Virus record (IMG/VR): IMGVR_UViG_3300031825_000022
Location: 1 to 44,307 of that record
Length of the DNA stretch: 44,307 bases
Reading direction: 5' to 3' (one strand)
Source: a virus
A program made the position numbers and the translations under genes. Below the pieces are notes generated by a model. That model had not been told where the DNA came from. It was given only the letters and a program-made list of their open reading frames with translations, and made no database searches. Positions 1 through 44,307 of this stretch are shown one piece after another (positions within the stretch are counted from its first letter, which is position 1; each line of letters starts with the position of its first letter).

Positions 1-46
1 CATTCGTCAGCCCCTGCGCCACGCTCGCGGCTTCGTTCTTGGTCAT
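1..46 (-). CDS. Start of the junction-spanning gene (N-terminus of a 198-aa phage protein)
   Basis: The ATG at 46 is preceded by AAGGAG and encodes MTKNEAASVAQGLTN before the window ends. The right edge of the window reads TNGVESIKTKG in the same frame. The two edges share the 8 bases CATTCGTC, and merging them gives one uninterrupted 597-nt gene (198 aa) that continues in 43749..44307. The Shine-Dalgarno overlaps the stop region of the winged-helix gene just upstream in transcription order. The function is not recognised; see the C-terminal part. Confidence 0.8.
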   Translation of the reverse strand, partial: MTKNEAASVAQGLTN

Positions 47-2239: not shown

Positions 2240-2272
2240 GCACTATAGCAAATTCCCAGTGCATAGCAAACC
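2240..2272 (-). promoter_or_regulatory. Leftward sigma-70-like promoter with extended -10
   Basis: On the minus strand TTGCTA and TATAGT are separated by 16 nt, and the -10 is preceded by TGC (TTTGCTATAGT), an extended -10. It points at the 1809..2204 gene. A GGATCAAAAGGG site lies directly upstream of the -35, a position where an activator or repressor could act. Confidence 0.5.
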
Positions 2273-2522
2273 CTTTTGATCCATTGTGAACCATAATCCC
2301 CTAAAATGTAGAACCCCCATCCATCTTTTCCCAAGCACTTGACTTTTGGCAGGGGGAGGCTATGATGCATCCATCACCTTAAGAGAAGATGAGGGAAGAA
2401 CTCATTCTTTTTCTCAAAAAATGTTTTTTCCTGCACCCCCACGCGCGTATGTGATTGCAGCAAGAGGGGTGGGGGTATTTCTTTTTAGGCCATTAAAGAT
2501 CAAAATGGATCAAAAGGGTTTT
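2268..2522. repeat. Inverted and direct repeats flanking the divergent control region
   Basis: AAACCCTTTTGATCCATT at 2268-2285 is the inverse complement of AATGGATCAAAAGGGTTT at about 2504-2521. GATCAAAA also occurs at 2498-2505, so the 8-mer is present three times. In addition CTATAGCAAATT(T/C)CC is directly repeated at 2243-2257 and 2536-2550. These sites bracket the intergenic region between the leftward 131-aa gene and the rightward methyltransferase gene and look like operator copies. Confidence 0.55.
2339..2366 (+). promoter_or_regulatory. Rightward sigma-70-like promoter for the methyltransferase transcript
   Basis: TTGACT (2339-2344) and TATGAT (2361-2366) are separated by 16 nt, the best -35/-10 match on the plus strand in this region. 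The methyltransferase ATG lies about 190 nt downstream, leaving a long A/T-rich leader that contains two GATCAAAA copies. Confidence 0.55.
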
Positions 2523-2557
2523 CTTGGTCGATCCTCTATAGCAAATTTCCAACCTAT

Positions 2558-3247
2558 ATGCCCTCCCCCCTCTACCTCGACGATGCGCTCGTCACCGAAC
2601 ACACCCTCCACGCACAATCCCTAGGCGTCACAATCCTACAAATATGGCTCCTAGGCCACACGCCCCAATCCCACGTATCCGCCCTCCTATCCCTCTCTGC
2701 GTTTAAACCCGACTCCCACATCCTCGATATCGCATGCGGCACAGGCGCCGTCGCTGCCCTCATGGCCCAGCAACGCCCCGATCTCCGCTTCTCCCTCCAG
2801 AACATCAGCCCCGGCCAGTTCTCCCTCACCCCCCACCACCTCCCAGCCTTCCGGGGCCGCTACCTAGGCGACTTCACCACCCTCTCCAACGTGCCCTCCT
2901 CCCACTTCGACGGCGCCCAACTCCACTACGCCCTAGGCCACACCACCGACCTTCCCACTTTCTTCCTCAACGCCGCCCGCATCCTCAAGCCCGGCTCTCC
3001 CCTCTTCCTCTACGATCTGCAACCCCTCCCCTCCAACGAACAGTGGGCATGGTCCACCCTCGGTTACCACACTCACACCCGCCACGACATCCAAGCCGCC
3101 TCCTCCCCCTTCTTCACCCTCCAAACGCTCTCCCTCTCCACTTTCCCCCGCTCCCTCTCCACCTTCTCCCGCGTCTGCCCCTCCGAAGCTGCCGAATGCT
3201 CCACCCGCACCGTGCCAGTCTGCTACCGCCTCACCAAGACCCTCTAA
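2558..3247 (+). CDS. Class I SAM-dependent methyltransferase on the opposite strand of the early arm
   Basis: This 229-aa protein has a clear Rossmann SAM-binding motif I, HILDIACGTGAVAAL (about residues 54-68), followed by a motif-II-like strand and LHYALGH/NAARILKPGS (motif IV-VI region), as in small-molecule class I methyltransferases. No DNA-methyltransferase catalytic signature (DPPY or PC) is visible, so the substrate is unknown. It is the only rightward gene between 46 and 8,344. Its codons are extremely C-rich because the plus strand here is C-rich. No Shine-Dalgarno precedes the ATG, so the exact start is uncertain. A sigma-70-like promoter lies about 190 nt upstream. Confidence 0.75.
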   Translation: MPSPLYLDDALVTEHTLHAQSLGVTILQIWLLGHTPQSHVSALLSLSAFKPDSHILDIACGTGAVAALMAQQRPDLRFSLQNISPGQFSLTPHHLPAFRGRYLGDFTTLSNVPSSHFDGAQLHYALGHTTDLPTFFLNAARILKPGSPLFLYDLQPLPSNEQWAWSTLGYHTHTRHDIQAASSPFFTLQTLSLSTFPRSLSTFSRVCPSEAAECSTRTVPVCYRLTKTL

Positions 3248-3439
3248 AACGCCCCACACGCTCCTCCAAAGGGAGAAGCTACCCTAGCACCACCCCTCCC
3301 CATTCAACGCAGCAGCGCCCCGCCTCGCAAGCCCTGCGCCCTCTCCCACACCCCTTTCTTCCCGCCTTCCAAAAGCAAAGGGGCCAGACCCCCCGCAGAG
3401 ATCCAGCCCCTCCCAACACCCGCTCACCACCCCCTCCCT

Positions 3440-3544
3440 TCACACATACGCCACTACCAGCGCCCCCAACGTACAACCTCCCATCAGCATCACCGCCCAC
3501 AAACTAATCAGGCAAAACAGCCCCACCCCTCTTAACGTCACCAT
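3440..3544 (-). CDS. 34-aa membrane peptide, possible lipoprotein
   Basis: The ATG at 3544 follows an excellent GGGAGG. The product has a short basic start, then a hydrophobic stretch ending in LMGGC (a loose lipobox) and a second short hydrophobic segment GALVVAYV. It may be a tiny membrane protein or lipoprotein. The adjacent 190 nt towards the methyltransferase gene (3248-3439) holds no gene I can support. Confidence 0.45.
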   Translation of the reverse strand: MVTLRGVGLFCLISLWAVMLMGGCTLGALVVAYV

Positions 3545-3557
3545 AACCCTCCCTCCC

Positions 3558-3785
3558 TCAGAAATCCCTCAACGCCGCCCGCACACTCGTCTTGGTATAA
3601 GGCGCCCCGTCCGGAGTCTCACGCATCCCCAACTCTTCCAGCAACTCCACCAGTTGCACCGCCCCTTCCTCCTTCCCATGGCGCCTCACCAACTCCCTAG
3701 CCTGCCTGTACAGGCCCTCATCATTATTTATCCACAGGCTCACATTCCAGTGATTCCAGTTCCTGTGCCCGTTATATCCAGTCAT
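3558..3785 (-). CDS. Small conserved phage protein with NWNHWNVSLWINND motif (75 aa)
   Basis: The ATG at 3785 follows GGAGAGGGAG. The N-terminal pattern YNGHRNWNHWNVSLWINND resembles a widespread family of small phage proteins that begin with NGY-N-x-TWNVALW-like sequences (DUF7249-type as I recall it); their function is unknown. The rest is a charged alpha-helical region with RQARELVRRHG and LLEELGM. It is followed at 13 nt by the 34-aa membrane peptide gene. Confidence 0.65.
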   Translation of the reverse strand: MTGYNGHRNWNHWNVSLWINNDEGLYRQARELVRRHGKEEGAVQLVELLEELGMRETPDGAPYTKTSVRAALRDF

Positions 3786-3797
3786 CTCCCTCTCCTT

Positions 3798-3929
3798 TCA
3801 ACAAACAGCTATCTCAGCCCACCCAACGAAGCGCGAATACGCCCACGCATGAAAGCCCGCATCCCATACCCACTCCGTATAACCATACTTCTCAACGGTT
3901 ATCACCCTCTTCCCCTTCCTCTTCATCAT
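3798..3929 (-). CDS. 43-aa basic aromatic-rich protein
   Basis: The ATG at 3929 (ATGATG) follows GGAGGGAGAGG. The start lies inside the 3' end of the acidic 72-aa gene, overlapping by 38 nt in another frame. The product starts with KRKGKR and then has VEKYGYTEWVWDAGFHAW with many aromatic residues, which reads like real protein. Unknown function. Confidence 0.5.
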   Translation of the reverse strand: MMKRKGKRVITVEKYGYTEWVWDAGFHAWAYSRFVGWAEIAVC

Positions 3930-4110
3930 CCTCTCCCTCCTCTTCTTCCCTCTCATTAGGATCTTCGTCCTCCAGCGCATCCCCGCACACCGGGCACGCC
4001 CAAAAATAGAAGTACCCGCATCCCCAACTCTGCGCCACCTGCCACCCGTGCGTAGGGCACCAGCCATCCGGCGCTCCCCTGTCCGCATGCCGCCTCGCCA
4101 ATCCCGCCAT
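3892..4110 (-). CDS. Zinc-ribbon-like protein with extreme acidic tail (72 aa)
   Basis: The ATG at 4110 follows AAGGAG. The first 45 residues contain WCPTHGW and FWACPVCG, a likely Cys/His metal site, and the last 25 are almost all Glu/Asp (EEEEGEDDEEEGEEGD). Acidic phage proteins of this kind can act as DNA mimics, but that is only a suggestion. The start overlaps the stop of the 53-aa gene by one base. Confidence 0.6.
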   Translation of the reverse strand: MAGLARRHADRGAPDGWCPTHGWQVAQSWGCGYFYFWACPVCGDALEDEDPNEREEEEGEDDEEEGEEGDNR

Positions 4111-4271
4111 CAGAACCACTCCTTCGAGTCGATGGGCTTGCGGTAGTGTCCGTGAAGTCGGACGGCCACAGACCCATTAGGCCATGTCTGCACTGTGGTA
4201 TTGCCGAGTGACTTCAGCTTGTTGCCGCCCGCCTTGATGGCGGCAATCATGTCACGCTCGATCTTGCGCAT
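4110..4271 (-). CDS. Small phage protein (53 aa), MRKIERDMIAAIKAG family
   Basis: The ATG at 4271 is preceded by GGAGGAGG. The sequence begins MRKIERDMIAAIKAGGNK and continues with a beta-rich part (TTVQTWPNGSVAVRLHGH). Many small podo- and siphophage genes start in the same way; I know no function for them. The 3' end overlaps the next start (TGATG arrangement), so translation is coupled. Confidence 0.65.
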   Translation of the reverse strand: MRKIERDMIAAIKAGGNKLKSLGNTTVQTWPNGSVAVRLHGHYRKPIDSKEWF

Positions 4272-4273
4272 GC

Positions 4274-4462
4274 TTACACCTCCTCCTTCTGTTCGAATCC
4301 CGTGCAACTCTCGATCCAAATCGGATCAAAATTCAGCGGCCACCAGCACCACCCATTGATCACCCCATGCGGGTTACTCTCCACCTTCGCCCCCGCATTC
4401 CCACACTGACTGTGGCAATCCCCCGGCACATCCCTGCGCCACTTGCATGCATAGCAGTTCAT
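4274..4462 (-). CDS. Cys/Trp-rich small phage protein (62 aa)
   Basis: The ATG at 4462 overlaps the stop of the JAB peptidase gene and follows GGGAGG. The pattern CYACKWR-x3-PGDCHSQC, then NPHGVINGWCWWPLNFDP and ESCTGF, is a recognisable small zinc-binding phage family of unknown role. Five or more cysteines suggest one or two metal sites. Confidence 0.65.
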   Translation of the reverse strand: MNCYACKWRRDVPGDCHSQCGNAGAKVESNPHGVINGWCWWPLNFDPIWIESCTGFEQKEEV

Positions 4463-5103
4463 CACACCACCTCCCTCACCACGCGCACACTCAGCGGTAC
4501 ATCCGTCCCCGCTAACTCGTTCCACTGGCACACAGCCCCCACGCTCTGTGCCGCCAGCTTCCACTGATACCGAAAGTCGCACACTCCCACCTTCTTTATC
4601 ACCCTCGTCAATTCCCAAATGGCCTCATGCATGCTCCCGATCTCCACCACACTTTTATGCCGGCCCCCCAGCCTCCCAAACACCCTTCGCGCCCGATCCC
4701 CCGCTATCGGCATTAGCCGCTCCTCCGCAAAATAATGAAACTTCTCCGCCACCTCCATATTGTGATAAATCAGGTTGCTCCCCACATCGATGTCGGTCCA
4801 GTAAGTGCTACCATCCAGCGCTCCCACCGCCACGATATCCACCCCGTTTACCGCCGCCATCACCAAATCCTGTGGCGACAGACTATTGCCACTCGGGTGG
4901 CTATGCACCACCACACCACCCTCATTCCACAGCAAATCCCGCGCATCGAAATTGACGCTCATCCGATCCCCCTCAGCCCTCGCCACCACACCACCCTCAG
5001 GCCCTATCAACACCCCGAACTCCCTTCCAGTCCTGCGCGAAAACTCCCAGCATTCCCGCACCGCCAGATCCACCACCCCTTGATGCTTCCGCATATCAAA
5101 CAT
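4462..5103 (-). CDS. JAB/JAMM-domain metallopeptidase-like protein
   Basis: This 213-aa protein begins at an ATG with GGAGAGG. Residues 63-79 hold GVVVHSHPSGNSLSPQD: two metal-ligand histidines (H67, H69), then S76 and D79, the JAMM signature HxHP-SxxD with one residue fewer between P and S than in most RadC/Mov34 members. JAMM enzymes cleave isopeptide or peptide bonds; phage copies usually belong to tail assembly (lambda K type), but this one is in the early arm among small host-interaction genes. The C-terminal half shows no known domain. It is followed directly by the Cys/Trp-rich gene with an overlapping start. Confidence 0.75.
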   Translation of the reverse strand: MFDMRKHQGVVDLAVRECWEFSRRTGREFGVLIGPEGGVVARAEGDRMSVNFDARDLLWNEGGVVVHSHPSGNSLSPQDLVMAAVNGVDIVAVGALDGSTYWTDIDVGSNLIYHNMEVAEKFHYFAEERLMPIAGDRARRVFGRLGGRHKSVVEIGSMHEAIWELTRVIKKVGVCDFRYQWKLAAQSVGAVCQWNELAGTDVPLSVRVVREVV

Positions 5104-5130
5104 GATCCTCTCCAGTTCTCTCTTTAGCTG

Positions 5131-5160
5131 GTAGGGGAAAGCCTCTTAACCTTCCCCTAC
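5131..5160. promoter_or_regulatory. Perfect 9-bp stem-loop in the leader of the JAB gene
   Basis: GTAGGGGAA (5131-5139) and TTCCCCTAC (5152-5160) are exact inverse complements with a 12-nt loop. It lies between the 56-aa membrane protein gene and the JAB gene. No T-tract follows on either strand, so it is not a standard intrinsic terminator; an mRNA-processing or attenuation hairpin is possible. Confidence 0.5.
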
Positions 5161-5176
5161 AATCCATCGTTTAAAC

Positions 5177-5206
5177 AGTCTGAGCCAGTCCGAGCCTGTC
5201 AGAGCC
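5177..5206. repeat. Three tandem 10-bp repeats (AGTCNGAGCC)
   Basis: AGTCTGAGCC, AGTCCGAGCC and TGTCAGAGCC follow each other without gap, immediately after a GTTTAAAC palindrome at 5169-5176. They overlap the stop codon of the 56-aa membrane protein gene. Short tandem sites of this type could be protein-binding iterons; no function is known. Confidence 0.5.
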
Positions 5207-5369
5207 CGTCCACTAGCAGACTCCCCACCACATGCAGCACGGCCCACAGACCGAATCCCGCCAATCCCCACGTGCCCAGCCGATCCCCGCTCCTCCGGTC
5301 ACCTTCCGCTTCCTTCCCGATCTCTGCCCGCCGATCAAACTCAGCCGGCACCGCATCTACATTGGACAT
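5199..5369 (-). CDS. 56-aa membrane protein with charged N-terminal half
   Basis: The ATG at 5369 is preceded by a weak GAGGGG. Residues 1-30 are highly charged (FDRRAEIGKEAEGDRRSGDR), and residues 32-55 form one hydrophobic segment (WGLAGFGLWAVLHVVGSLL). It is shorter than most phage membrane proteins and belongs to the series of tiny membrane proteins in this arm. Unknown function. Confidence 0.5.
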   Translation of the reverse strand: MSNVDAVPAEFDRRAEIGKEAEGDRRSGDRLGTWGLAGFGLWAVLHVVGSLLVDGL

Positions 5370-5426
5370 TTCACCACCCCTCTAACTTTCAAACATCGGT
5401 TGAAATACAGATATCCCCAGCCACCC

Positions 5427-5654
5427 CTAAGCCTTCACACTTCCCGCTGTGCGGGGCGGTCTCCAGTCCCCCAATTCCGGGCACACCTCATCTACCAATC
5501 CCTTCGCTACCCGGGCCATCACCTCCCGCAATTCCTGCCCCTCCAGCGTCCGGTCCTCATCCAATTCGCAGGTGCAGCGGCCCACCGTCTCCAGCAAATC
5601 CGACATCGGTTGCGGAATCGGCCCCAGATTCCTGTACGCGCTAATCCGTTCCAT
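5427..5654 (-). CDS. Hypothetical soluble protein (75 aa)
   Basis: The ATG at 5654 follows AGGAGG. The product has MSDLLETVGRCTCELDEDRTLEG then a helical stretch ELREVMARVAKGLVDEVCPELGDW. No membrane segment or known motif. It sits in a run of small genes with good ribosome sites, so it is very likely expressed. Confidence 0.6.
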   Translation of the reverse strand: MERISAYRNLGPIPQPMSDLLETVGRCTCELDEDRTLEGQELREVMARVAKGLVDEVCPELGDWRPPRTAGSVKA

Positions 5655-5685
5655 CACACACCTCCTCGAAGGTTCGCAGCGAGTT

Positions 5686-5865
5686 TCAAAGTTTCCAGAG
5701 CCACAGCATGTTGGCACCAGCGCTCGCTACCGTCGCAGCCGTGGCCCACTCAGCCGGCAACAAATGCGTACTCAGCAAGCCCACCGCCACACACACTTTC
5801 AACGCCAGCACGTGCTTAGCAGCCCAACGTACCGTGCTTTCCCCGTCCTCCCTCATCGTTGCCAT
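5686..5865 (-). CDS. 59-aa membrane protein
   Basis: The ATG at 5865 follows AGGAG. After a charged start (MREDGESTVRW) there are two hydrophobic stretches, HVLALKVCVAVGLLSTHLL and WATAATVASAGANMLWLW, consistent with a two-span membrane protein. Its start lies 5 nt after the stop of the 65-aa gene. Function unknown. Confidence 0.55.
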   Translation of the reverse strand: MATMREDGESTVRWAAKHVLALKVCVAVGLLSTHLLPAEWATAATVASAGANMLWLWKL

Positions 5866-5870
5866 AACCC

Positions 5871-6068
5871 TTACTCCTCCACTTCGATGCCGGCCCATGC
5901 CATCACCAGCACAAACACCAGCATCACCAGCGCTGCCTTCCCATACAACCCGTGGCTCTCATAACTTACGAGCCCCAGATACGAGACATGCGCCCCCCAA
6001 TGACCACGCTCAAGCGTATGCGCCCTCTTATGCAGGCTGGCCCGCACCGCATCCATGAGTGCCCGCAT
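5871..6068 (-). CDS. 65-aa protein with C-terminal membrane span
   Basis: The ATG at 6068 overlaps the stop of the preceding gene (TGATG) and has GGAGAAGG upstream. The N-terminal 45 residues are basic and His-rich; residues 46-62 (AALVMLVFVLVMAWAGI) form a membrane helix with an acidic end (EVEE). A tail-anchored topology is likely. Confidence 0.55.
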   Translation of the reverse strand: MRALMDAVRASLHKRAHTLERGHWGAHVSYLGLVSYESHGLYGKAALVMLVFVLVMAWAGIEVEE

Positions 6069-6652
6069 CACCCTTCTCCCCGCAGCGCCTTGCCCGCTTC
6101 CTGCGCGTCTTGCAGCCCATCCAGCGGCGGCAAACCCCCAGCATCCTCTTCCCCTGCGTGCACATCTAGGGAGAGCGCCCCCACATCGGACAGGTCAGGC
6201 TCATCCCCATCCGCGCATTGCACCTCGAACACATCCTGCTCCACGGTCTTGGTGCCCACCTTTACCCGCTTGCACGTGGCATTGGCCCCACTCACATAGC
6301 AGACAAGCTCGAACTCGTCATTCTGGAGCTGGACGCACATACTCTCCTTTTCAAAGCTCCGCCCCTTAAAGCCCTTGCCCGTACCCTTGGCGACGATGCG
6401 CGCCAGCCCGGCCACCTCCCCGAAACTGTTCAGCCCCGTCACCTGCGCATAGACCCGCTGTCCCTGCACAGTCACGTACAGGTAGGCCCCCTCGATCTCG
6501 CCCACCGCACGCTCCAGCGCATCCGCCACCGCCTGCGACTGCGCAGCGCGTGCCTTGTGGGCCTCCAATTGCGCCACCTTATCTTGCACGTAAGACCACA
6601 GATACTTATATTCGGATTCAATCTGCGCTTCGATTCGACGATACTCACTCAT
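6068..6652 (-). CDS. Hypothetical 194-aa protein with coiled-coil N-terminus and acidic C-terminus
   Basis: The ATG at 6652 follows CAGGAGAG. Residues 1-60 are heptad-like (AQIESEYKYLWSYVQDKVAQ and on), the middle is beta-rich (LYVTVQGQRVYAQVTG), and the last 45 residues are acidic (ADGDEPDLSDVGALSLDVHA). I do not recognise a family. It is the largest unknown gene of this arm. Confidence 0.6.
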   Translation of the reverse strand: MSEYRRIEAQIESEYKYLWSYVQDKVAQLEAHKARAAQSQAVADALERAVGEIEGAYLYVTVQGQRVYAQVTGLNSFGEVAGLARIVAKGTGKGFKGRSFEKESMCVQLQNDEFELVCYVSGANATCKRVKVGTKTVEQDVFEVQCADGDEPDLSDVGALSLDVHAGEEDAGGLPPLDGLQDAQEAGKALRGEG

Positions 6653-22936: not shown

Positions 22937-24523
22937 ATGTCCTTCACTGGCGACATCGTAGAGATCCCCATGTTGGGGGGTCTCACGGGCACGCGAAACC
23001 AAGCCCTGATCCGCCCGGATCAGCTTATCGTCGCGCGTAACGTGACCTTCGACACAGGCACCATCCGCAAGGAAGGCGGTGCCCTCAAGTACAACGCTAC
23101 CGCAATCACAGGCTCCCCTACCGTCTTGGGTGGGTGGGATTGGAACCACGCGCCTTCCGTGCAGCGCATGGTTGTTGTCCTGTCCGATGGCACGATCAAG
23201 AAAGACAGCGGTGGAGGCACCTTTGGCACCACGCTCGCGTCCGGCCTCTCTGTCACTGACACCGTTCCCACCTTCGTGGAGGGGGGCAAGGAAGTCGCCG
23301 CGAACAACCGCAAACTCTACATCTTCACGGGCAAAAACGCTGTCCAATACCTCGATGGCGACGCAGCCACCACTGCCGCCATCCCGACTCCCCCTGCCGA
23401 TTGGAGTGGCGGCAACCAACCCACGTGCGGGGCCAATCATGAATCCCGTCTGTGGGGTGCTGGCAATGCCAACGATCCTCACCGCCTCTACTACTCGACT
23501 ACGACTAATCATGGGGACTTCACAGGTGCTGGATCGGGTTCTCTTTCCATCTACCCCGGCGAGGGGGAGCGCATTACGGGCATGCTTTCTTTCAAGGGCC
23601 TGCTCGTCGTATGGAAGTACCCTATCGGCATCTACTACGCAGACACGACTGACCCCACCATCACCAACTGGAAAGTGCGCCGCGTCACGAAGGGCACCGG
23701 GGGCGTCTCTCCGCAAGGCCAGATCCTGATTGATGACGATGTGCTGTTCCTAGACGCTCAAGGCAACTTCCAGCTTCTGTCTGCCACGCAAGAGTTCGGC
23801 AACATGGGCACGAACAACCTCTCCCAAAAATACCAGATCAACACCTTCCTGCGTGACAACATCAACATGTCCCGCCTCGGCTTCACGCGTGCCATCTACT
23901 ACGGCCACAAGCGGGAGGCCATGTTCTGCATGACCACCACCGGAGCCACCGAGAACAACTGCCGCATGGTGGTGGACTTCAATTCTTCCCAGCAGGAGCA
24001 GCGCTTTATTTTCCGCGACCGTGACGTGAACCCCTGCATCTTCCTGCGCACGGAAACCGACAACATCCAGCACCCGTGCATCGGCACCGCAGACGGTTTT
24101 GTCTACAAACTTGACCAAGCCTCCCGCTCCAAAGACTCCCTCGGCTACATTGGTGAGTTCCAGACTCCTCACGTCGATTTTGCCTTCGCAGATCCCAAAC
24201 TCGGCACGCGTCGCAAGATGGGCCGCTTCCTCGAAGTCGTAGTGGAGCCGTCTGGCAACTGGAACCTCTCTGTGGACATCCTCTGGGATGGCGTCACCGT
24301 TCAGACGGTCCAATTCAACATGGGCTTCACCGGCGCTGCTCTTGGCACTTTCCTGATCGGCACCGATGTCCTTGGTGCCGACATCGTAGCCAACAAGAAA
24401 CGCCGCATCACTGGGGAGGGGCGCCGCTTCTCCCTCAAGGCCCGCAATAGTGGCGCTGGAGAAGACTTCTCTATCGCTCGTTTCTACCTTCACTACAAGC
24501 TCGGAAATGAACGCCTCCGCTGA
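22937..24523 (+). CDS. Tail tubular protein B (T7 gp12-like nozzle)
   Basis: The 528-aa protein starts at an ATG with GAGGAG. It is beta-rich throughout, with a typical opening PMLGGLTGTRNQALIRPDQL and repeated WxxG/TD motifs (GEGERITGMLSFKGLLVVWK) of the propeller-like nozzle. It would close the tail tube below tubular protein A. The 3' end overlaps the start of the next gene by 17 nt. Confidence 0.8.
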   Translation: MSFTGDIVEIPMLGGLTGTRNQALIRPDQLIVARNVTFDTGTIRKEGGALKYNATAITGSPTVLGGWDWNHAPSVQRMVVVLSDGTIKKDSGGGTFGTTLASGLSVTDTVPTFVEGGKEVAANNRKLYIFTGKNAVQYLDGDAATTAAIPTPPADWSGGNQPTCGANHESRLWGAGNANDPHRLYYSTTTNHGDFTGAGSGSLSIYPGEGERITGMLSFKGLLVVWKYPIGIYYADTTDPTITNWKVRRVTKGTGGVSPQGQILIDDDVLFLDAQGNFQLLSATQEFGNMGTNNLSQKYQINTFLRDNINMSRLGFTRAIYYGHKREAMFCMTTTGATENNCRMVVDFNSSQQEQRFIFRDRDVNPCIFLRTETDNIQHPCIGTADGFVYKLDQASRSKDSLGYIGEFQTPHVDFAFADPKLGTRRKMGRFLEVVVEPSGNWNLSVDILWDGVTVQTVQFNMGFTGAALGTFLIGTDVLGADIVANKKRRITGEGRRFSLKARNSGAGEDFSIARFYLHYKLGNERLR

Positions 24524-33192: not shown

Positions 33193-34397
33193 GTTTGCAC
33201 CTCTAGGTATGGGTCATTCAGGTTGCCGCCTTGGGCTTCGCGGATCTTGCCGCCCGCCAAGGCACTCCGTACCGCTAACTCGAACTCGTCAATGGATAGT
33301 CTCCTCATGAAGTAGTCGCCATAGAGCCGGCTCTTACGGATCGGGCCAGCCTTCAGCGCGTTAATCAGTTCTTGGGTGGCCACAGTGCTCGGGCTCTGGC
33401 CCACCATCCCGAAAATCTCGCGCGTATCGTTTTGCAGATCTCGCAGCCTGCGATCCGCCTCCTCCAAATGAGAGACGTCGATAGACGGGAAGTCTCCACG
33501 CGAAGCTGAAATGACCATGGCGAGCTTGTGAAGGTGAGTCTGTTGGCGGGCCGCAACCCCAGCCTCACGCTTACCGCCCAGCCGCAATTGGTCCTCCATA
33601 TATTTTTCATACCACTGTGTCCCCCATGCATACGCCTCTGGTGTCATCTGGTATTCGCCAGCGTACTCGGCCATGACCTGCAACCCTTCCACCAACTCTT
33701 TCTCTTTGGCTTTGTGGGCAGCCTTGTCGTAGCTGTGCATCTGGCTAGGATACGCAATGAAGGCGCGAGGCCGATCCGCATAAACGTAGATCGGGCGGCT
33801 CCCAAAGCCACTCCCGATCAGCGCATCACTGAAGTTGTCGCTGACCCAACCCGGCGTCGTACAGGCGAGGATATTGATCCACGGGTTCTCCACATCGTCG
33901 CAGCCGCTGGTCTTCGTTTCCTTGCGGAACGTTTCCAGCTTGCCGTCCCACATGTCGGTAAGGTTGTCCACCAAGTCCTGATCCTTGGGCTTGAAGAACG
34001 TTCCAAACTCCGACAGTGCGAACGTGCAGCTTGAATGCCGAAACTCTTCGCCATCGGCCAGAGCACTCTGGGTGCAGTCGGCCATGTGCGTAACCAGTTG
34101 CTGCCACGTCACGCTCTGCGGGCCGAAATCCACACCCTCGACCTTCTTCAGCAGCTTCATACCTACACCGATGCTCGTGCTCTTCTTGACGACGCCGGGC
34201 GGCCCCACGATCAATAGGTAGAAGTTGGGGGTCCACTGAAAATGGACCTGATCTATCCACACCTTGCGTTGGAGCGCCCCGGCAATCGTCGCCACCCCGA
34301 CCCAGTACATGACTTTCTCTGGGGCTTCACCGTTCTTGGAGAACTCCACGAAGTCCGCCAGCCAGTCGGGCTTGGCGCCCTCTTGTTGCTGTCCCAT
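33189..34397 (-). CDS. DUF3987-like P-loop ATPase, replication helicase/primase candidate (402 aa)
   Basis: LLIVGPPGVVKKST at residues 61-74 is a Walker A, and SCTFALSEFGTFF and NPWINILACTTPGWV correspond to the Walker B / sensor region of DUF3987-type ATPases found with phage replication genes. These are thought to be superfamily helicase- or primase-associated ATPases. The start has GAGAGG upstream, 9 nt after the polymerase stop. In an otherwise helicase-free genome this is the best candidate for the replicative helicase; no separate primase domain is visible. Confidence 0.65.
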   Translation of the reverse strand: MGQQQEGAKPDWLADFVEFSKNGEAPEKVMYWVGVATIAGALQRKVWIDQVHFQWTPNFYLLIVGPPGVVKKSTSIGVGMKLLKKVEGVDFGPQSVTWQQLVTHMADCTQSALADGEEFRHSSCTFALSEFGTFFKPKDQDLVDNLTDMWDGKLETFRKETKTSGCDDVENPWINILACTTPGWVSDNFSDALIGSGFGSRPIYVYADRPRAFIAYPSQMHSYDKAAHKAKEKELVEGLQVMAEYAGEYQMTPEAYAWGTQWYEKYMEDQLRLGGKREAGVAARQQTHLHKLAMVISASRGDFPSIDVSHLEEADRRLRDLQNDTREIFGMVGQSPSTVATQELINALKAGPIRKSRLYGDYFMRRLSIDEFELAVRSALAGGKIREAQGGNLNDPYLEVQT

Positions 34398-34406
34398 AAA
34401 TGCCTC

Positions 34407-36800
34407 TCATTGTGGCCATTCGCATTTTTCAACTTCGCCCCATGAGGTATTTGAGAGTGATAGTTCGAGCGGTATGTAGAGGGGGTCCGCGTATGGTACT
34501 GCAATCTGGCTTGCCTTTCGAAGCCTCTTCAACGTCTCATCAAGATCCCCATTCAGAAGGATCTGGCCATTCAGCGAGTCGTGAACCTGCATCTGGATCT
34601 GGCACAGGCGCTCTCCCAACTCATCTTCGATGGCCATATGCTGCAAGGAGATCAGGATGGATACTGTTGACTGAGGCACCCATGCAAGAGCCTCAGGTAG
34701 GAGGCCATCCACCCGGTCGAAATAAATCCTACGGTACCCAAACCTGTTGGTGACGGTACGAGTACCCAGTACCTGCGCCTCCGTTCTCTGGTGCCATTTC
34801 TTAATACCGGGGTGCATCTCGAACCAACGCGCTTGAGACTTCTCGGCTTCGTGGACAGTACACCCAAGCGCAATCGCGCAAGTGCGACCCTTGCCGCCGT
34901 AGTTCGTAAGGTGGCAAAACTTCTTGGCAAACTGTCTCTGTTCATAGCTGGGGTCCTCCCTTAAGCGGAAAATGCCCTTGGCATTCTCGGTGTGGATGTC
35001 GGCGTGCGCCTTCAGCATGTCCTTCAACTCTTCGTCTTCGGCTTCCCACGCCACCACTTGAAGATCCGCTCTTTCCAAGTCCGTGTTGAAGTAGATGTAG
35101 CCGGGGTCTGGCACGATGCAGTTCCGCAGGTTTGGCAGCTTCCTCCCACTGCCTGTGCTGCCAGTGGTGATGTTCTGAAGAGGGCCACCCCGATGAAACG
35201 CATTCTTGCCGCTGGTGAGCCGGAAAGTTTCGGCGCCGGTCGGGCTCCAACTTGCCCGGAACCTTGAGTCGGGGTCAAGTTCTGCCTCCAGAAAGTTGGC
35301 CCTTAGCTTGTCAAGGCTGCGGCACTCCAGAATGGCTTGGGCCAAGTCCGCGATCTTGCCGGGGTGTTTGGCAATGACTTTCTTGAGCGCTTCGTCATCT
35401 GTTGTAGGGGCGAAGCTGCCCCTTTTCTTGATGGCCTTCACGCCCAGTTGCTTGTAGAACAGGTCAGCCACCTGCGTGGGGCTGTTGAACAGGTGCGTCA
35501 GCGTGGGAGCCTTCTTGGTCCCCGCCACCTTGGTAACGGGTTTGCCAATAACCTCCTCCATCATTTTCTCGCGCTCATCAATGGCCGTCTTGACCTCGGA
35601 GACCATGGCGTCCGTGCGCTCAAAGTCTCGGTTCACGCCCCGCCTCATCATCCGATAGACGTACTGGCCGTAGCGCATGCGTTCTTCGAACTGCTTGTTT
35701 AAACGGGCTTGCGCCAGCTTCTCCCGCTGGCGTTGGGCGATCTCGAACGTGTGAACCACGTCGCGGCAGTTGTAACGGAAGAACGATTGGAAGTCAGCGA
35801 TCTTGCCCCAGTCCTTGGCGTCCATTTTCCAATACTGGTGCCATTCCGAATACATGCTTGACAGGAAGCCCAGATCCCGCTCCACGCCCGGAAACAGGAC
35901 GCTTTGGGCGATGTAGGTGTCGAAGTCCGGCATCTTGGTCCAGCCAAAGTCCGCCTCAAAATATTGGGCGTCGTAGTTCCAGTTCTGGCCGATCCACGTC
36001 ACGTCCGCGTTGCTGCAGACCTCACTAAGTTTGTCGATGATGTCTCGTTGGTCCTGCGGCTCCCAATAAACGCCCCCTTCGTTTCGAAAGGGAATGCATA
36101 GCGCATGCCGGGCGGATTTGGCGAGGCCCAGACAGATGATGTGCCCGTCAGCAGTCTCGATATCGCCAGAGAGATCGCCCTTGGCCGATTCCAGAAAGGA
36201 CATAACCTCATCGAAGGAGGGAGCGGTGTTGAACTCGAAAACGGGATCAACGAATCCTTCCCGCAGTCGCTTGGCCACCCTCTGCTTGAGGTCGTGAATG
36301 ACGTAGGGTCGAGTGGCCCAGTTCCTGAGAATGCTTGCCGGGTGAAGCGTGGGGACGAAGCGATGCCCGCTCCCCAATACGATCTCGCTGCCTCGCCAGT
36401 TGGTAATACCCCACTTGCCGTGGAGCGCCCAAAGTGCTGTGTTGCCAAATCCAACAATGATCTCAGGGTTGACACGCTTGATCTCCTCATCCAGTTCCTC
36501 GATGCCTTCGATGACGCGTGGGTCGGCGTAGCGCCCTCCATACTCGATGAAACCCTTCTTCAGGTCGGTCTTCTTGTCGGTGCACCATGCGCCCATCTCG
36601 TTGAAAGGCGGCCTGTACTTGCATACGTTGGTGATGTAGCACTCATCGCGGCGCAGCCCCGCTTCATGCAGCAGGCCAGTCAGGATGACGCCGCTGTCTC
36701 CCACGAATGGCCGGCCCTGAATCTCCTCGTCAGCGCCCGGCGCCTCCCCCACGATCATGATGCGTGCATTGTCCGGGCCGTGTCCATTAACCTTCAGCAT
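34407..36800 (-). CDS. Uracil-DNA glycosylase / 3'-5' exonuclease / family A DNA polymerase fusion (797 aa)
   Basis: Three domains follow each other. Residues 1-185 are a UDG-superfamily domain: IMIVGEAPGADE (14-25), GRPFVGDSG, and TLHPASIL (151-158). Residues about 195-375 form a DnaQ-like proofreading exonuclease: SGDIET (D213, E215), NWNYDAQ (N275, D277) and YNCRD (Y343, D347). The rest is a family A polymerase: motif A YFNTDLERADLQ (D574), motif B RQFAKKFCHLTNYGG (622-636) and motif C QVHDS (738-742; the usual HDE is HDS). The ATG at 36800 has GGAG 7 nt upstream; another in-frame ATG lies 12 nt earlier. This is the replicative polymerase. Confidence 0.9.
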   Translation of the reverse strand: MLKVNGHGPDNARIMIVGEAPGADEEIQGRPFVGDSGVILTGLLHEAGLRRDECYITNVCKYRPPFNEMGAWCTDKKTDLKKGFIEYGGRYADPRVIEGIEELDEEIKRVNPEIIVGFGNTALWALHGKWGITNWRGSEIVLGSGHRFVPTLHPASILRNWATRPYVIHDLKQRVAKRLREGFVDPVFEFNTAPSFDEVMSFLESAKGDLSGDIETADGHIICLGLAKSARHALCIPFRNEGGVYWEPQDQRDIIDKLSEVCSNADVTWIGQNWNYDAQYFEADFGWTKMPDFDTYIAQSVLFPGVERDLGFLSSMYSEWHQYWKMDAKDWGKIADFQSFFRYNCRDVVHTFEIAQRQREKLAQARLNKQFEERMRYGQYVYRMMRRGVNRDFERTDAMVSEVKTAIDEREKMMEEVIGKPVTKVAGTKKAPTLTHLFNSPTQVADLFYKQLGVKAIKKRGSFAPTTDDEALKKVIAKHPGKIADLAQAILECRSLDKLRANFLEAELDPDSRFRASWSPTGAETFRLTSGKNAFHRGGPLQNITTGSTGSGRKLPNLRNCIVPDPGYIYFNTDLERADLQVVAWEAEDEELKDMLKAHADIHTENAKGIFRLREDPSYEQRQFAKKFCHLTNYGGKGRTCAIALGCTVHEAEKSQARWFEMHPGIKKWHQRTEAQVLGTRTVTNRFGYRRIYFDRVDGLLPEALAWVPQSTVSILISLQHMAIEDELGERLCQIQMQVHDSLNGQILLNGDLDETLKRLRKASQIAVPYADPLYIPLELSLSNTSWGEVEKCEWPQ

Positions 36801-36981
36801 GGCTGGCTCCATGATGCTTCATGCAGTTTGTGTCTACGCAGACGCCCGCATGGTTCACTATGGTCTTCCCGCAGCCTTCGCACAGAGCATATATGTGGTG
36901 GCTCGGTTCGCACAGGTTGGCCAGATCGCCAAAGTCCTCGTTGAACAGTTCCTCGCTGCACTGCTTGCAGAAGTCCGCCAT
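36787..36981 (-). CDS. Zinc-binding protein (64 aa) overlapping the polymerase start
   Basis: The ATG at 36981 follows CTGGAGA. Its Cys/His pattern is dense: FCKQC (5-8), LCEPSHH, LCEGCGKT (about 34-37) and CVDTNCMKHH, so two zinc sites are likely. The last 14 nt overlap the polymerase start in another frame, suggesting coupled translation. It follows a leftward terminator, so its mRNA depends on read-through or on an unseen promoter. Confidence 0.65.
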   Translation of the reverse strand: MADFCKQCSEELFNEDFGDLANLCEPSHHIYALCEGCGKTIVNHAGVCVDTNCMKHHGASHAEG

Positions 36982-40223: not shown

Positions 40224-40859
40224 TCAGAAGTTACCGGCTTCCGCGCCCAGAGCGGGCTGGTCAGGCTCCGTGCCGGCGGCTTCCTTCTTCTTGCGGCTGT
40301 CCTTGTCGCGGATGGACTTGACCATCTTCTCGAACTTCTCCGGCTTGGCCTTCTTCTCGCGGATCTCGCTGGCGGTCAGCCGGCTGGTCGGATGGAAGAC
40401 GCCCCAGACGTTCATGTCAAAGAAGTCCTTGCCCGCTTGGGAGGTCTTCAGTTCCTTCTGGAGCATCAGGCCGATGGGCTTCTTCAGCAGATCCGGGAAC
40501 ACCTGCCCGTCTTCTTCGAGGCCCCGCCGCTTGTTGTTCTCTTGGTCGTAGGTGTAGACCTTGCCCTTGACGGCCTTGAGACCCTTGAGGCCGAAGATGG
40601 TCATCATGGCCTGCACGAAGTTGAAGCCGAAGAGCGGGGTGCCGTCAGCCTTGCGCGTCCACAGCGTGAGTTCGCACTTGCCGCCGTGGCCGTCATCGAA
40701 GCCCAGTTTCATGCCTTCGGTACCCTTCTGGGAGGAGGTCACGGCCTCGGCGTACTCGAAGGTGCCGATGAAGGGGCCGCTTGCGTCGATCCGGTTTGCG
40801 TTGTCGTCGGCATGGCCAGCGGCTTCCGGGTCGTAGTCGTAGTTGTGTGAATTTGCCAT
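40224..40859 (-). CDS. DUF669-like single-stranded-DNA-binding protein (211 aa)
   Basis: The order (directly after the Sak4-like ATPase) and the pattern of residues 25-160 (FIGTFEYAEAVTSSQKGTEG, MKLGFDDGHGGKCELTLWTR, and the MMTIFGLKGLKAVKGKVYTY core) fit the DUF669/OB-type ssDNA-binding proteins that accompany phage recombination genes. The C-terminal 50 residues are highly charged (EIREKKAKPEKFEKMVKSIR) and end in GNF, an aromatic end like other SSB tails. It should protect ssDNA during replication or recombination. Confidence 0.6.
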   Translation of the reverse strand: MANSHNYDYDPEAAGHADDNANRIDASGPFIGTFEYAEAVTSSQKGTEGMKLGFDDGHGGKCELTLWTRKADGTPLFGFNFVQAMMTIFGLKGLKAVKGKVYTYDQENNKRRGLEEDGQVFPDLLKKPIGLMLQKELKTSQAGKDFFDMNVWGVFHPTSRLTASEIREKKAKPEKFEKMVKSIRDKDSRKKKEAAGTEPDQPALGAEAGNF

Positions 40860-40896: not shown

Positions 40897-41544
40897 TTAC
40901 CAGCCATACTTGGTGATCGCGTCATCAACAAGTTTCAGGTCGTTAGCGATCAGTTCTTCCTGAAACATCCCCATCGGGGTCTTCACCGTATCCGAGCCGT
41001 TGTTGCGCGTGGAAAAATAGTGCTCCCCATCCCGTACCACCGCTCGCAGCACAATCGAAAACATGCCCTCGACCGTGATCTTTTCGTCCAGCATCCGCCC
41101 GATGGTCTTGATCTTGGTCTTGGTGCCATCGTCGCTTTGCTGCGTATGGGCCAATATGTAGATCCGCTTCTCGGGGGGCAGGACTGCCGCCATGCACAGG
41201 ACATCCCATGCGTGCCGGCCAATCTCCGTGAACTTGTCGTAGCCCTTCTCGTCGCTGCGCCGCATGAATTCGTTCGCCATCACGTACTGGAAATCGTCCA
41301 GCAGGATGATCCTGCGGCTCGTCTTCTGCATCAGATCCATGATCTGTGTCGAGCGATCCGTCACGAAAATATTACCTGCCTTCTTCTCGGCGTCCCATCG
41401 GGACCAACCCTTAGTTGCCGCGTTGGGAAACGGCAGTGGCTTCTCGATGGCCTGAATCAACAGGGTCTCCTTGGGGTCGAGATTCCGGTACGAGGCGGAC
41501 TTGCCGCTCCCGCTCTCTCCCAAAACCAGTACAGGTGTGCTCAT
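40897..41544 (-). CDS. Sak4-like RecA-fold ATPase / annealing partner (215 aa)
   Basis: GESGSGKS at residues 9-16 is a Walker A and RIILLDDFQ at 78-86 a Walker B. The rest (GRHAWDVLCMAAVLPPEKRI, YILAHTQQSDDGTKTKIKTI) matches phage AAA/Sak4-type ATPases, which bind ssDNA and promote annealing together with an SSB. The next gene is indeed SSB-like, supporting this. The start follows GAGGT and overlaps the 22-aa membrane peptide gene. Confidence 0.75.
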   Translation of the reverse strand: MSTPVLVLGESGSGKSASYRNLDPKETLLIQAIEKPLPFPNAATKGWSRWDAEKKAGNIFVTDRSTQIMDLMQKTSRRIILLDDFQYVMANEFMRRSDEKGYDKFTEIGRHAWDVLCMAAVLPPEKRIYILAHTQQSDDGTKTKIKTIGRMLDEKITVEGMFSIVLRAVVRDGEHYFSTRNNGSDTVKTPMGMFQEELIANDLKLVDDAITKYGW

Positions 41545-41611: not shown

Positions 41612-42175
41612 TCAGCGTCCTAGGATGCGGCGCAGGTACGCTTTGTCGGTCTCGCCCGGCTGCTGCGGCGTGATCTCATGCTTCTGCGTGTAAACGAAGG
41701 TCTCCTTCTTAGGCACCTTCACAGGTTCTGCGCTGAGAGGCTCATCGTAGCCCAAGTCCCCTCCACATGAATCAGGATCAGTCATGTACTGCTTGGGATC
41801 AAACGGCGCAGGAGGAGGAGCAGGCACAGCCACCTTGACCGTCTTTGCCGCTTTGGCTTGGGGCTGGAGCGCCGGGGCTACGACGCGAAGCCAATCAGGC
41901 TTCCATACGAATTGGGACACTGACAAGCCAGCGAAATGCCTGTATGGGTCAGATAGCGCAAGCCACCACCCCAGTGTGACAGGATTCTGCGCGGCATCCT
42001 CGACGCGGAACAGGCACGGCCCCACAAACTGATCCATCATGCTGCCTACCCACTCAGGATCAAACACGGATGGATGCGGACCTTCTATCACAACCATATC
42101 GCCCACTTGAAAGTTGGGGCGACCGCTCCCCCCGCTACCGACTGGGGAGGTCTGCACTTTGTTGGGAGGCGCCAT
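41612..42175 (-). CDS. Hypothetical protein (187 aa)
   Basis: The ATG at 42175 follows GAGGAG and touches the stop of the HIRAN-like gene. Two parts are visible: a beta-rich SH3-like N-terminal region (FQVGDMVVIEGPHPSVFDPE to LGWWLALSDPYRHFAG) and an Ala/Pro-rich linker with a basic helical end (ETDKAYLRRILGR). Similar proteins of unknown role occur near recombination genes. Confidence 0.55.
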   Translation of the reverse strand: MAPPNKVQTSPVGSGGSGRPNFQVGDMVVIEGPHPSVFDPEWVGSMMDQFVGPCLFRVEDAAQNPVTLGWWLALSDPYRHFAGLSVSQFVWKPDWLRVVAPALQPQAKAAKTVKVAVPAPPPAPFDPKQYMTDPDSCGGDLGYDEPLSAEPVKVPKKETFVYTQKHEITPQQPGETDKAYLRRILGR

Positions 42176-42606
42176 TATGCGAACTCCTCAGCCAACTTGA
42201 TCTCGACGTTAGCCCAGTTGATCTTGTCATCCACGGAGGTGGTCAGCGACATCAGCTTGCCTTCTACGCGGATACCGACTGTGAGCATCTTCCACAGCAA
42301 CAGCTTCTGCGTCTGATCTTCAAGTCCCTTGTTGGAAATCCATCCAAGGCGCGAAACCCTCGTACCGTTGTGGCTATGCACGCCGTCTGTGTCAACGACA
42401 TAGACGCCGATAGCGAATTTATCGTGGGAGTTGTCGTTGTGAGGCACCACATAGAGAAATTGGCCAGCAGCCAAGTCTCGTGTCTTGGCCAGCTTGTGGC
42501 ACTCCCCGTAGTAGCAGCCAGTCAGGGCTACGGTCAGCAGATGGCGATTCTTGCGGGTCGCTACGTTCAGCGGCTTGATGTTGGGGCCTGTGTATTGGTT
42601 GGGCAT
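42175..42606 (-). CDS. HIRAN-domain-like protein (143 aa)
   Basis: The pattern VALTGCYYGECHKLAKTRDL, FLYVVPHNDNSHDKFAIGVY and RLGWISNKGLEDQTQKLL agrees with the HIRAN domain (a strand, a long loop with P-x-N-x-HD-x-AI, then a helix), which recognises damaged or 3'-OH DNA ends in HLTF and related proteins. It may recognise DNA ends during recombination. The ATG at 42606 is the first codon of the replication operon; the inverted-repeat region lies just upstream. Confidence 0.6.
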   Translation of the reverse strand: MPNQYTGPNIKPLNVATRKNRHLLTVALTGCYYGECHKLAKTRDLAAGQFLYVVPHNDNSHDKFAIGVYVVDTDGVHSHNGTRVSRLGWISNKGLEDQTQKLLLWKMLTVGIRVEGKLMSLTTSVDDKINWANVEIKLAEEFA

Positions 42607-43378
42607 GATGGTCTCTTAGCACGTCAAAACGAAAACAGCAGTAGTGTGGGGGGATTAGGCTTCACCCTGACTAGGGGCTGGGTTTCGCGCTTACGAGGCG
42701 CGCCCCACTTTGATCGCCGGCGGGTAGTCATTCCGCTCCTCCCACACTACTGCTGTTTTCCAAAATTAGTGGGGGCTCTTTCTTGCCGGGTTGCCCCCCA
42801 CCCGTCCGTCTCTCCGCTGCGAGAGGAGTCTACGCAGCAAAGGCGCAAGCCTGAAACAGGTGGCCCGTAACGTGGGCCAGCCGGCGCTTGTTTAACACTG
42901 CTCCCGGTAGTGGCGCGTACCTTCGATTACACCCGCAATGCTGGGGTCGGCATAGTCAACGTGCATCCCGCCGAATCCTTCAGAGACCTTTGGACAACCC
43001 TTGCGGGGCCTAGCTATCTCGCACGTAAGGAAAATTCTTGCCGCCTGCTGGGTGCTGTGGGGCGGCGCCACGCTAATACGATCCCAGCGAAAGTCCAAGA
43101 TTTTATGCGCTGTTGCCTGACTGTCCACCGAAGGACTCGCCTCACGCTGGGCTCTTGGCAAGCCCGCTGCTGGTGCCGGTTTTTCTTCCCCCAGATACCG
43201 GCATCTGGGTAAGAGCCTCGCATGCGGCGCGGCATGCAAGTCGGAAGGGGTGGGCTCTGACACTATGCGGGGGAGTGCCCCGGGTTCTTTGCTCCCATTG
43301 CCCGCACCGTGAGGTGTGAGGGGGTGGCTGCATACTACCGGACCACTGTGCGCAGGGAGTGTCAGACGCCCATAAACC
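42607..43378. other. Non-coding, hairpin-rich region upstream of the replication operon
   Basis: About 770 nt without a well-supported gene. It holds the 20-bp inverted repeat (42631-42760), GTGGGGG...CCCCCCAC (about 42769-42801), GGCCC-GTAACGT-GGGCC (about 42861-42877), CCCAGAT/ATCTGGG (43190-43209) and TCTGACACT/AGTGTCAGA (43256-43264 / 43358-43366). One minus-strand frame (42892..43422) is open but mostly has the composition of non-coding DNA; only its last 24 residues after an AAGGA-preceded ATG at 42966 (MHVDYADPSIAGVIEGTRHY...) look protein-like. It may hold the replication origin or structured RNAs. Confidence 0.55.
42631..42760. repeat. Perfect 20-bp inverted repeat with 90-bp centre
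   Basis: GAAAACAGCAGTAGTGTGGG (42631-42650) and CCCACACTACTGCTGTTTTC (42741-42760) are exact inverse complements. The inner 90 bp can fold further (GGGGC...GCCCC with GCGC...GCGC, about 42676-42708). CAAAA occurs immediately outside both arms (42625-42629 and 42761-42765), which resembles a target duplication. It may be a large cruciform, a MITE-like element or a structured RNA. Confidence 0.85.
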
Positions 43379-43555
43379 TTACTTCTTTTTCGACCCCTGC
43401 TTGATGCGGCGCTCCCGCACAATCAATGCTTGCAGACGCCTTGCGCTCGTTGCCGCGTCCATCTTCTTGTAATGCGGGCGCTGCTTCGGTGCCAGATTCT
43501 TGAACCCGCTTGCCGCTTGGCTGCGACGTCGCGCATTCACTCTTGCCTGTCCCAT
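43379..43555 (-). CDS. Small basic protein (58 aa)
   Basis: The ATG at 43555 follows AGGAGA. MGQARVNARRRSQAASGFKN begins a strongly basic protein ending in RERRIKQGSKKK. Its charge suggests nucleic-acid binding. It is the last gene before the hairpin-rich region in the leftward direction. Confidence 0.55.
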   Translation of the reverse strand: MGQARVNARRRSQAASGFKNLAPKQRPHYKKMDAATSARRLQALIVRERRIKQGSKKK

Positions 43556-43748: not shown

Positions 43749-44307
43749 CTAAGAATTGTCATTTCCTGCGGTTGGCGGCTGCTCGCGGGACATGGCGGTG
43801 AATGGTTGAATCAGTTCAGCCCAAAGTTGATATTGGCCGTCGCGCGCATTTTCCGGCAGTGACGTGCGGGTATATCCGGCTGACCCGCCACGCTTCCACG
43901 CAGCACCGATGCGGTACCGCTTATCCTCGCCACCGGCCTGCACCTGCTGGGCGGCGCGGTAAAGCGGCACCCATGCGTGGGGTGCGTTCTCAGGTTCATG
44001 CTTGTCCAGATCGGTGCGCAAAGAATCAAGGCCGCCCCCTCGCGGATCGACAAAGTATGGCTGGCACCACGTCTGCACTTCCCCTCGACCGTTCACGAAT
44101 ACCCACACCAACGCCTCGCGCTCATCCTGCTGCGCCGATGCGGCCTCTGCTGCGGGCGGGGTGGCAGGCATATCTTCGTAGCCCGCCAATACGCGCTCCA
44201 GCCTGTCCAACTTCTCCGCCCCCGATTCCCCGGTAGCTGGTGCGGCGGGCGCAGGGGAAACAGAATCGTTTTTCCCCTTCGTCTTGATCGACTCGACACC
44301 ATTCGTC
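43749..44307 (-). CDS. C-terminal part of the junction-spanning gene
   Basis: The frame is open to the window edge and continues in 1..46 after removing the 8-base overlap; together they give 198 aa. The first 60 residues are a low-complexity linker (TGESGAEKLDRLERVLAGYE), then EALVWVFVNGRGEVQTWCQP, an acidic middle and WVPLYRAAQ, a pattern also seen in small phage proteins of the type wWVPLYRxPP whose function is unknown. Internal TTG and ATG codons near 44210 are not needed once the junction is closed. Confidence 0.75.
   Translation of the reverse strand, partial: TNGVESIKTKGKNDSVSPAPAAPATGESGAEKLDRLERVLAGYEDMPATPPAAEAASAQQDEREALVWVFVNGRGEVQTWCQPYFVDPRGGGLDSLRTDLDKHEPENAPHAWVPLYRAAQQVQAGGEDKRYRIGAAWKRGGSAGYTRTSLPENARDGQYQLWAELIQPFTAMSREQPPTAGNDNS

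Follow-up and report, generated by a model that had tools for sequence, protein, structure and literature searches.

A long-arm hairpin, probably acting as RNA, upstream of the replication operon of a phage, and an apparently uncatalogued phage RNA family

Results

A non-coding region upstream of the replication genes

The window, that is, the whole stretch of DNA analysed here, is an IMG/VR virus record of 44,307 bases. Its first and last 8 bases agree (CATTCGTC) and a 198-codon reading frame spans the join (window 1-46 plus 43749-44307), suggesting that the genome is probably complete and circular, or circularly permuted. Near one end, a gap of 772 nt (42607-43378, minus strand) is flanked by a 58-codon gene (43379-43555) and a HIRAN-like gene (42175-42606; a weak Pfam match, below the cut-off). 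Both flanking genes, and all genes down to the polymerase and primase, lie on the minus strand, so that in the sense of the operon the gap is upstream of the HIRAN-like gene, which is followed by genes for a Sak4-like single-strand annealing protein (40897-41544), a single-strand DNA-binding protein (SSB; 40224-40859) and a family A DNA polymerase (34407-36812), all on the minus strand.

When trained on this phage's long genes, codon-usage scoring gives negative values throughout the gap in all six frames, compared with +0.09 to +0.71 for genes of this phage; the region therefore codes for no ordinary protein. A 176-aa open reading frame (42892-43422, minus strand) was considered as a hidden protein and rejected, with a codon score of -0.40 and no relatives. 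The first-pass annotation, which had seen no convincing gene in about 770 nt and had named a conserved protein as the finding that would count against it, is thus borne out. It had also called the gap exceptional; the region is indeed non-coding over 772 nt, but further non-coding gaps exist in this genome, for example, 2205-2557. No trace of a former gene was detected in the region by BLAST comparison with the fetched relatives, and there is no tRNA gene nearby.

The description of the locus as rich in hairpins holds for one hairpin, but less so for the rest. The z-scores for folding of the whole region (-3.2 and -3.6) are owed mostly to a single long-arm hairpin, whereas the remaining approximately 617 nt (42762-43378) are only mildly structured compared to shuffled sequences (-1.3 on the minus strand and -2.1 on the plus strand); the hairpin-rich appearance is largely what a GC content of 60% yields.

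The long-arm hairpin and the reading frame within it

The long-arm hairpin comprises 130 nt (42631-42760), with arms at 42631-42654 and 42737-42760 that pair at 23 of 24 positions and enclose 82 nt. The 20-bp exact arms reported in the first-pass annotation (42631-42650 and 42741-42760, 90 nt apart) are thus confirmed, and extend to 24 bp with one mismatch, which is A-C on the operon-sense strand and G-U on the opposite strand. Exact arms of at least 18 bp within 400 nt appeared in none of 60 dinucleotide shuffles of the genome, that is, the inverted repeat is far beyond chance. The segment that contains the hairpin (42547-42847) has the lowest folding z-score, -4.98, among 100 sampled 300-nt segments of the genome. 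The arm sequence has no second copy in the genome or in the relatives, and no terminator adjoins the element. The motif CAAAA, noted previously outside each arm, is present on both sides, but the left copy is separated from the arm by one extra C.

Within the arms, in the operon sense, there are two small hairpins on the minus strand, GCGG[AAUGACUAC]CCGC (42720-42736) and CCC[UAGUCA]GGG (42665-42676). Six nucleotides of the latter's loop can pair with UGACUA in the loop of the former, a match reached in 3 of 200 shuffles, which suggests a possible kissing interaction or nested helix; as a pair, the two motifs read identically from either strand.

In the operon sense, 24 nt separate the end of the 24-bp stem, which encloses a small core of several hairpins, from the start codon of the HIRAN-like gene. 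A 35-codon open reading frame (42624-42731, minus strand) starts inside the hairpin behind the Shine-Dalgarno sequence GGGAGGAG, which forms the 3' part of the 5' arm of the stem (P1), then runs through the core and the 3' arm, and stops 17 nt before the HIRAN-like gene. Its start codon, at 42731, is the only one in the region that is preceded by a Shine-Dalgarno sequence of at least 5 nt; the codon score of the frame is slightly negative (-0.15) and not gene-like. The Shine-Dalgarno sequence of the HIRAN-like gene itself, AAGAGA, is weak by inspection. A promoter-like site, TGGACA-16-TAAAAT (43127-43100, minus strand), points toward the hairpin and the HIRAN-like gene; one such site against 0.6 expected is about what chance gives.

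Search for relatives of the region

Searches of phages, plasmids and about 160 fetched related contigs gave no DNA relatives of the region, and the search of the 130-bp element against other genomes that had been proposed for it returned no match in the same collections. A single exact 17-mer match in IMG/VR, to the contig L004 (a 20-nt match, E 0.01 among the fetched loci), is what chance predicts and was taken as such. No Rfam 15 family matched the region at the gathering threshold, and the relaxed mode gave only chance-level matches. In these respects, and in that most of the 770 nt shows no unusual folding and no tRNA gene is nearby, the region differs from GOLLD and ROOL, large, folded, non-coding phage RNAs of unknown function (PMC12286853) which, like this region, are long, phage-borne and non-coding, and similar to it in total length.

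The nearest viruses, identified with the DNA polymerase as the query, are about 50% identical in that protein (contigs L008-L012 and L091); no relatives were found via the HIRAN protein, and the phage records yielded no close relative of this phage lineage. Syntenic-looking gaps in MW202489 and Mel-JY34 were rejected; they contain no inverted repeats and by eye resemble unannotated coding sequence. At the syntenic place in L009, there is a non-coding stretch (approximately 981-1695) with a z-score of -4.5 for 536 nt and a long-arm hairpin at 1474-1576, but no sequence similarity to the window. A loose census of imperfect long-arm hairpins, for which there was no shuffle control, probably includes some chance matches (by a rough estimate, a few are expected); use was therefore restricted to elements that have further support.

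Separately, tRNA-like ends with a T-arm, and with acceptor pairing in L010-L012, were observed in non-coding sequence near SSB, Sak4 or other genes (L010:5956-6030, L011:7559-7635, L012:2767-2876, L009:1100-1165, L033:4719-4777 and L083:3920-3948). ARAGORN calls none of these as a tRNA in the loci on which it was run; the element of L012 has a tmRNA-like end that scores below the Rfam threshold.

A different hairpin is the better candidate for the origin

The location of the region next to the replication genes had suggested an origin of replication. However, no iterons (direct repeats), AT-rich unwinding stretch, DnaA boxes or GC-skew switch were detected at 42607-43378, which weakens this proposal, and a better candidate exists elsewhere. 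A large hairpin at 2255-2535 (minus strand; 43% GC, with 18-bp exact arms at 2268-2285 and 2504-2521) includes some of the lowest-GC segments of the genome, and three of five close relatives share its motifs. These three, L008 (3078-3358), L011 (1560-1860) and L012 (1820-2095), carry a large non-coding hairpin upstream of Sak4 with a shared C-rich arm and the motifs CCCCCACCCC, CGCG (or CGCG-type) and AATACNYCCCC; a pattern for this hairpin matches only these three in IMG/VR. The four-way alignment being loose, homology of the window element to the hairpin of the relatives is suggested by the motifs in common, together with the long inverted repeat and the setting. Judging from these features, 2255-2535, rather than the hairpin at 42.6 kb, would be the better origin candidate, and the best one in this lineage. 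Separately, the window shows strong GC skew at 2500-6500, down to -0.56, compared with about -0.1 across most of the genome.

The conserved hairpin of the lineage was also considered as a counterpart of the hairpin at 42.6 kb and rejected, given that the window carries that element at 2255-2535. The two are alike in being long inverted repeats in non-coding gaps, but the C-rich arm, the ACGCGCGT motif and the low GC content of the lineage hairpin are absent at 42.6 kb.

Long-arm hairpins with drifting arms in two related contigs

A terminator-like hairpin, GAGCCUAGCUACCAAGGGCAU ... GGUGCCUUUUCAGCUACGCUC, is common to the contigs L033 (400-575) and L041 (1928-2104), and is short-looped in L025 (3939-4000) and L040 (2544-2624). 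In L033 and L041, its loop holds a long-arm insert of about 110 nt in which the core is alike and the arms differ yet remain complementary. The alignment consists of two sequences, with the P2 strands off by one column. Neither the core of these inserts, AAGUC..AGAGUACGGCCGG, nor the outer hairpin GAGCCUAGCUACCAAGGGCAU is found in the window. The two inner loops of the L033 insert contain the same letters as those of the window element, but by the same, weak, shuffle test the GACUA/UAGUC complementarity is reached in 36 of 200 shuffles for L033 and 71 of 200 for L041; covariation of a kissing loop is suggestive but not significant.

A widespread phage RNA family with a covarying closing stem

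The core GCGTGGAAAGCAGACACGC of an element in two of the contigs (L048:1156-1289 and L037:9125-9238) is present in at least 120 IMG/VR contigs. In 111 of 123 fetched copies, this core is followed by a hairpin with a TAGCG-type loop and then by sequence that can pair with the sequence preceding the core. The plan is a variable stem strand (P1), CG, GCGUGGAAAGCAGACACGC, 44 to 193 nt, a hairpin with the loop AGUAGCGC, and P1'. The copies (in addition to the above, L170-L289; MT613935, Pseudomonas phage Persinger, at 23360-23382; OQ633420 at 33929-34117; KY417925; and PP179326-PP179329) represent at least 106 distinct viral loci, or P1 pairs. The first eight base pairs of P1 are all formed in 84 of 106 distinct pairs; on average, 8.9 of 10 P1 pairs are formed compared with 5.0 for shuffled partners; and pairs 2 to 7 are formed in 96-100%, with three or four Watson-Crick combinations each (these counts use nearly all instances and carry a slight bias, since the downstream hairpin was taken that gave the best P1; pair counts from a further alignment are inflated because its rows were picked for P1 pairing). 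P1 is strongly covarying. The copies were fetched by an exact 19-mer, so the constancy of the core hairpin is by construction, unlike the covariation of P1.

None of the Rfam 15 families matched 16 copies at the gathering threshold, and all the relaxed matches in phage Persinger are below threshold and mostly fall on an apparent terminator just downstream. Among the phage records examined, Pseudomonas phages Persinger and PotUPM1, Ochrobactrum phage POI1126 and others carry the element, which is not annotated there as an RNA, and several copies lie in early regions, for example, in Persinger, upstream of the gene for a single-strand-binding protein. The core sequence was not found in the open-access papers searched, a set that largely excludes subscription papers and preprints. 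Thus, the family is apparently uncatalogued, that is, found neither in Rfam nor in the phage annotations examined. In addition, second elements of a divergent type occur in L189 (minus strand) and L219 (plus strand); they keep the GUAGCG hairpin and the P1 plan, but their P2 differs (GUGCCCAAGCGGGC).

The window element does not belong to this family. The P2 hairpin that directly follows P1, GCGUG[GAAAGCAGA]CACGC, is absent from 42607-43378 (fuzzy search, and covariance model R1 with filters off), as is, from the window, the P4 hairpin with the loop NNUAGCGN that directly precedes P1'. What is shared is the plan, a long closing stem around a multi-hairpin core, whereas the free drift of sequence with retained pairing is a feature of the family.

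Discussion

In the reading that we tentatively favour, and to which we assign slightly less than an even chance, the 130-nt element would act at the RNA level, as a control hairpin within the 5' leader of the HIRAN/Sak4/SSB/polymerase operon, the leftward operon for replication and recombination. The stem would hide the Shine-Dalgarno sequence of the 35-codon frame, and the leader could be opened either by translation of this short frame or by a double-strand RNase (RNase III, for example) that cuts the duplex. Such opening may set the output of the HIRAN-like gene and, via coupling, those of Sak4, SSB and the polymerase, with the remaining approximately 600 nt presumably being leader sequence of modest structure.

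Leaders of the translational or attenuation type combine a short leader open reading frame with a hairpin that hides a ribosome-binding site. The window element resembles them in its place immediately before an operon's first gene, with a Shine-Dalgarno sequence within the stem and a short frame that ends near the main start codon; a stable hairpin directly upstream of a gene, with a ribosome-binding site enclosed, is what such a leader would contain. It differs from the known leaders in that the stem is unusually long and near-perfect, the short frame is only predicted, and no homologous leader is known.

A leader hairpin that hides a ribosome-binding site would jointly explain the position, the stability and the reading frame. 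Several observations argue for this reading: the position and sense of the element relative to the operon; arms beyond chance within the most stable 300-nt segment sampled; the location, inside the hairpin, of the only Shine-Dalgarno-led start in the region; the promoter-like site that reads into it; and the lack of the iterons, AT-rich tract or repeated copies that a DNA element would have. By analogy, long-arm hairpins can be RNA, given that in L033 and L041 complementarity is kept, at the same place in a shared hairpin, while the arm sequence changes, and that the closing stem of the widespread family strongly covaries. Other observations argue against it: the window element has no homologue and hence no covariation; the 35-codon frame shows no coding-like codon usage; perfect arms free of wobble pairs also fit a role at the DNA level; and the closest relatives have no recognizable counterpart at the same place. 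The mismatch, A-C in the operon sense but G-U in the complementary strand, speaks slightly for a transcript of the opposite sense. Among the three options raised in the first-pass annotation (a structured RNA or regulatory switch, an origin, and a MITE), an RNA with a structural or regulatory role is nevertheless the best supported, by position, stability, the frame and Shine-Dalgarno sequence in the stem, and the analogous phage RNAs, although it is not proven.

Rather than acting on the adjacent gene, the element could be a stand-alone structured RNA, trans-acting or self-assembling, freed from an early transcript through cleavage at the long P1 stem, with an architecture like that of other phage RNAs in which a long closing stem of variable sequence surrounds a core of several hairpins. 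We consider this unlikely but worth keeping in view: long P1 stems with inner hairpins are found in L033/L041 and in the widespread family, the inner loops of the window are complementary beyond most shuffles and share their letters with those of L033, and the syntenic non-coding region of L009, of about 715 nt, has a long-arm hairpin near its end. However, the element matches neither Rfam, nor the model of the widespread family, nor the relatives by BLAST; the loop complementarity is not significant in L033 or L041 alone and, in the window, is the same on either strand; and there is no adjoining terminator. A broader, rather doubtful conjecture is that the window element could be the lone representative of another family in a broad, largely uncatalogued class of phage RNAs, with a drifting but paired long closing stem, a small multi-hairpin core and early-region expression next to recombination and replication genes, of which the widespread GUAGCG RNA would be the best populated family.

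A role at the DNA level, as a cruciform or single-strand hairpin for replication initiation or as paired inverted binding sites for an initiator or repressor, would fit the 20 exact, wobble-free base pairs and the adjoining replication genes, but appears quite unlikely given the missing origin features (the lowest GC content over 60 nt is 47%), the better candidate at 2255-2535 and the occurrence of the arm sequence nowhere else in the genome. Even less credible is that the region is mostly decayed or filler sequence and the hairpin a chance or transient product; the lack of homologues and the modest structure outside the hairpin are compatible with this, but arms of such length are absent from the shuffled genomes and comparison with relatives reveals no former gene. 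The MITE-like insertion suggested by the first-pass annotation, with 24-bp terminal repeats, no coding capacity and short flanking repeats, is highly improbable: terminal inverted repeats do surround a core with CAAAA near both ends, and the long-arm hairpin of L033/L041 sits in the loop of a hairpin that is short-looped in L025/L040, but the window element is single-copy and has no match in phages, plasmids or related contigs beyond the chance 17-mer, the left CAAAA lies one base away from the arm, which makes a target-site duplication doubtful, and differing arms around a like core, as in L033/L041, are the opposite of transposase-recognized ends.

Conclusions

The element is a real and unusual hairpin that probably acts as RNA, within the leader of a replication operon of a phage; it is ordinary in kind and has no provable family. 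It marks a likely RNA control point of the replication operon in this phage lineage, for which the best origin candidate moves to 2255-2535. The wider value of this work lies in the uncatalogued phage RNA family that was met on the way; if expressed, the RNA of this family would be a concrete new target in culturable Pseudomonas phages.
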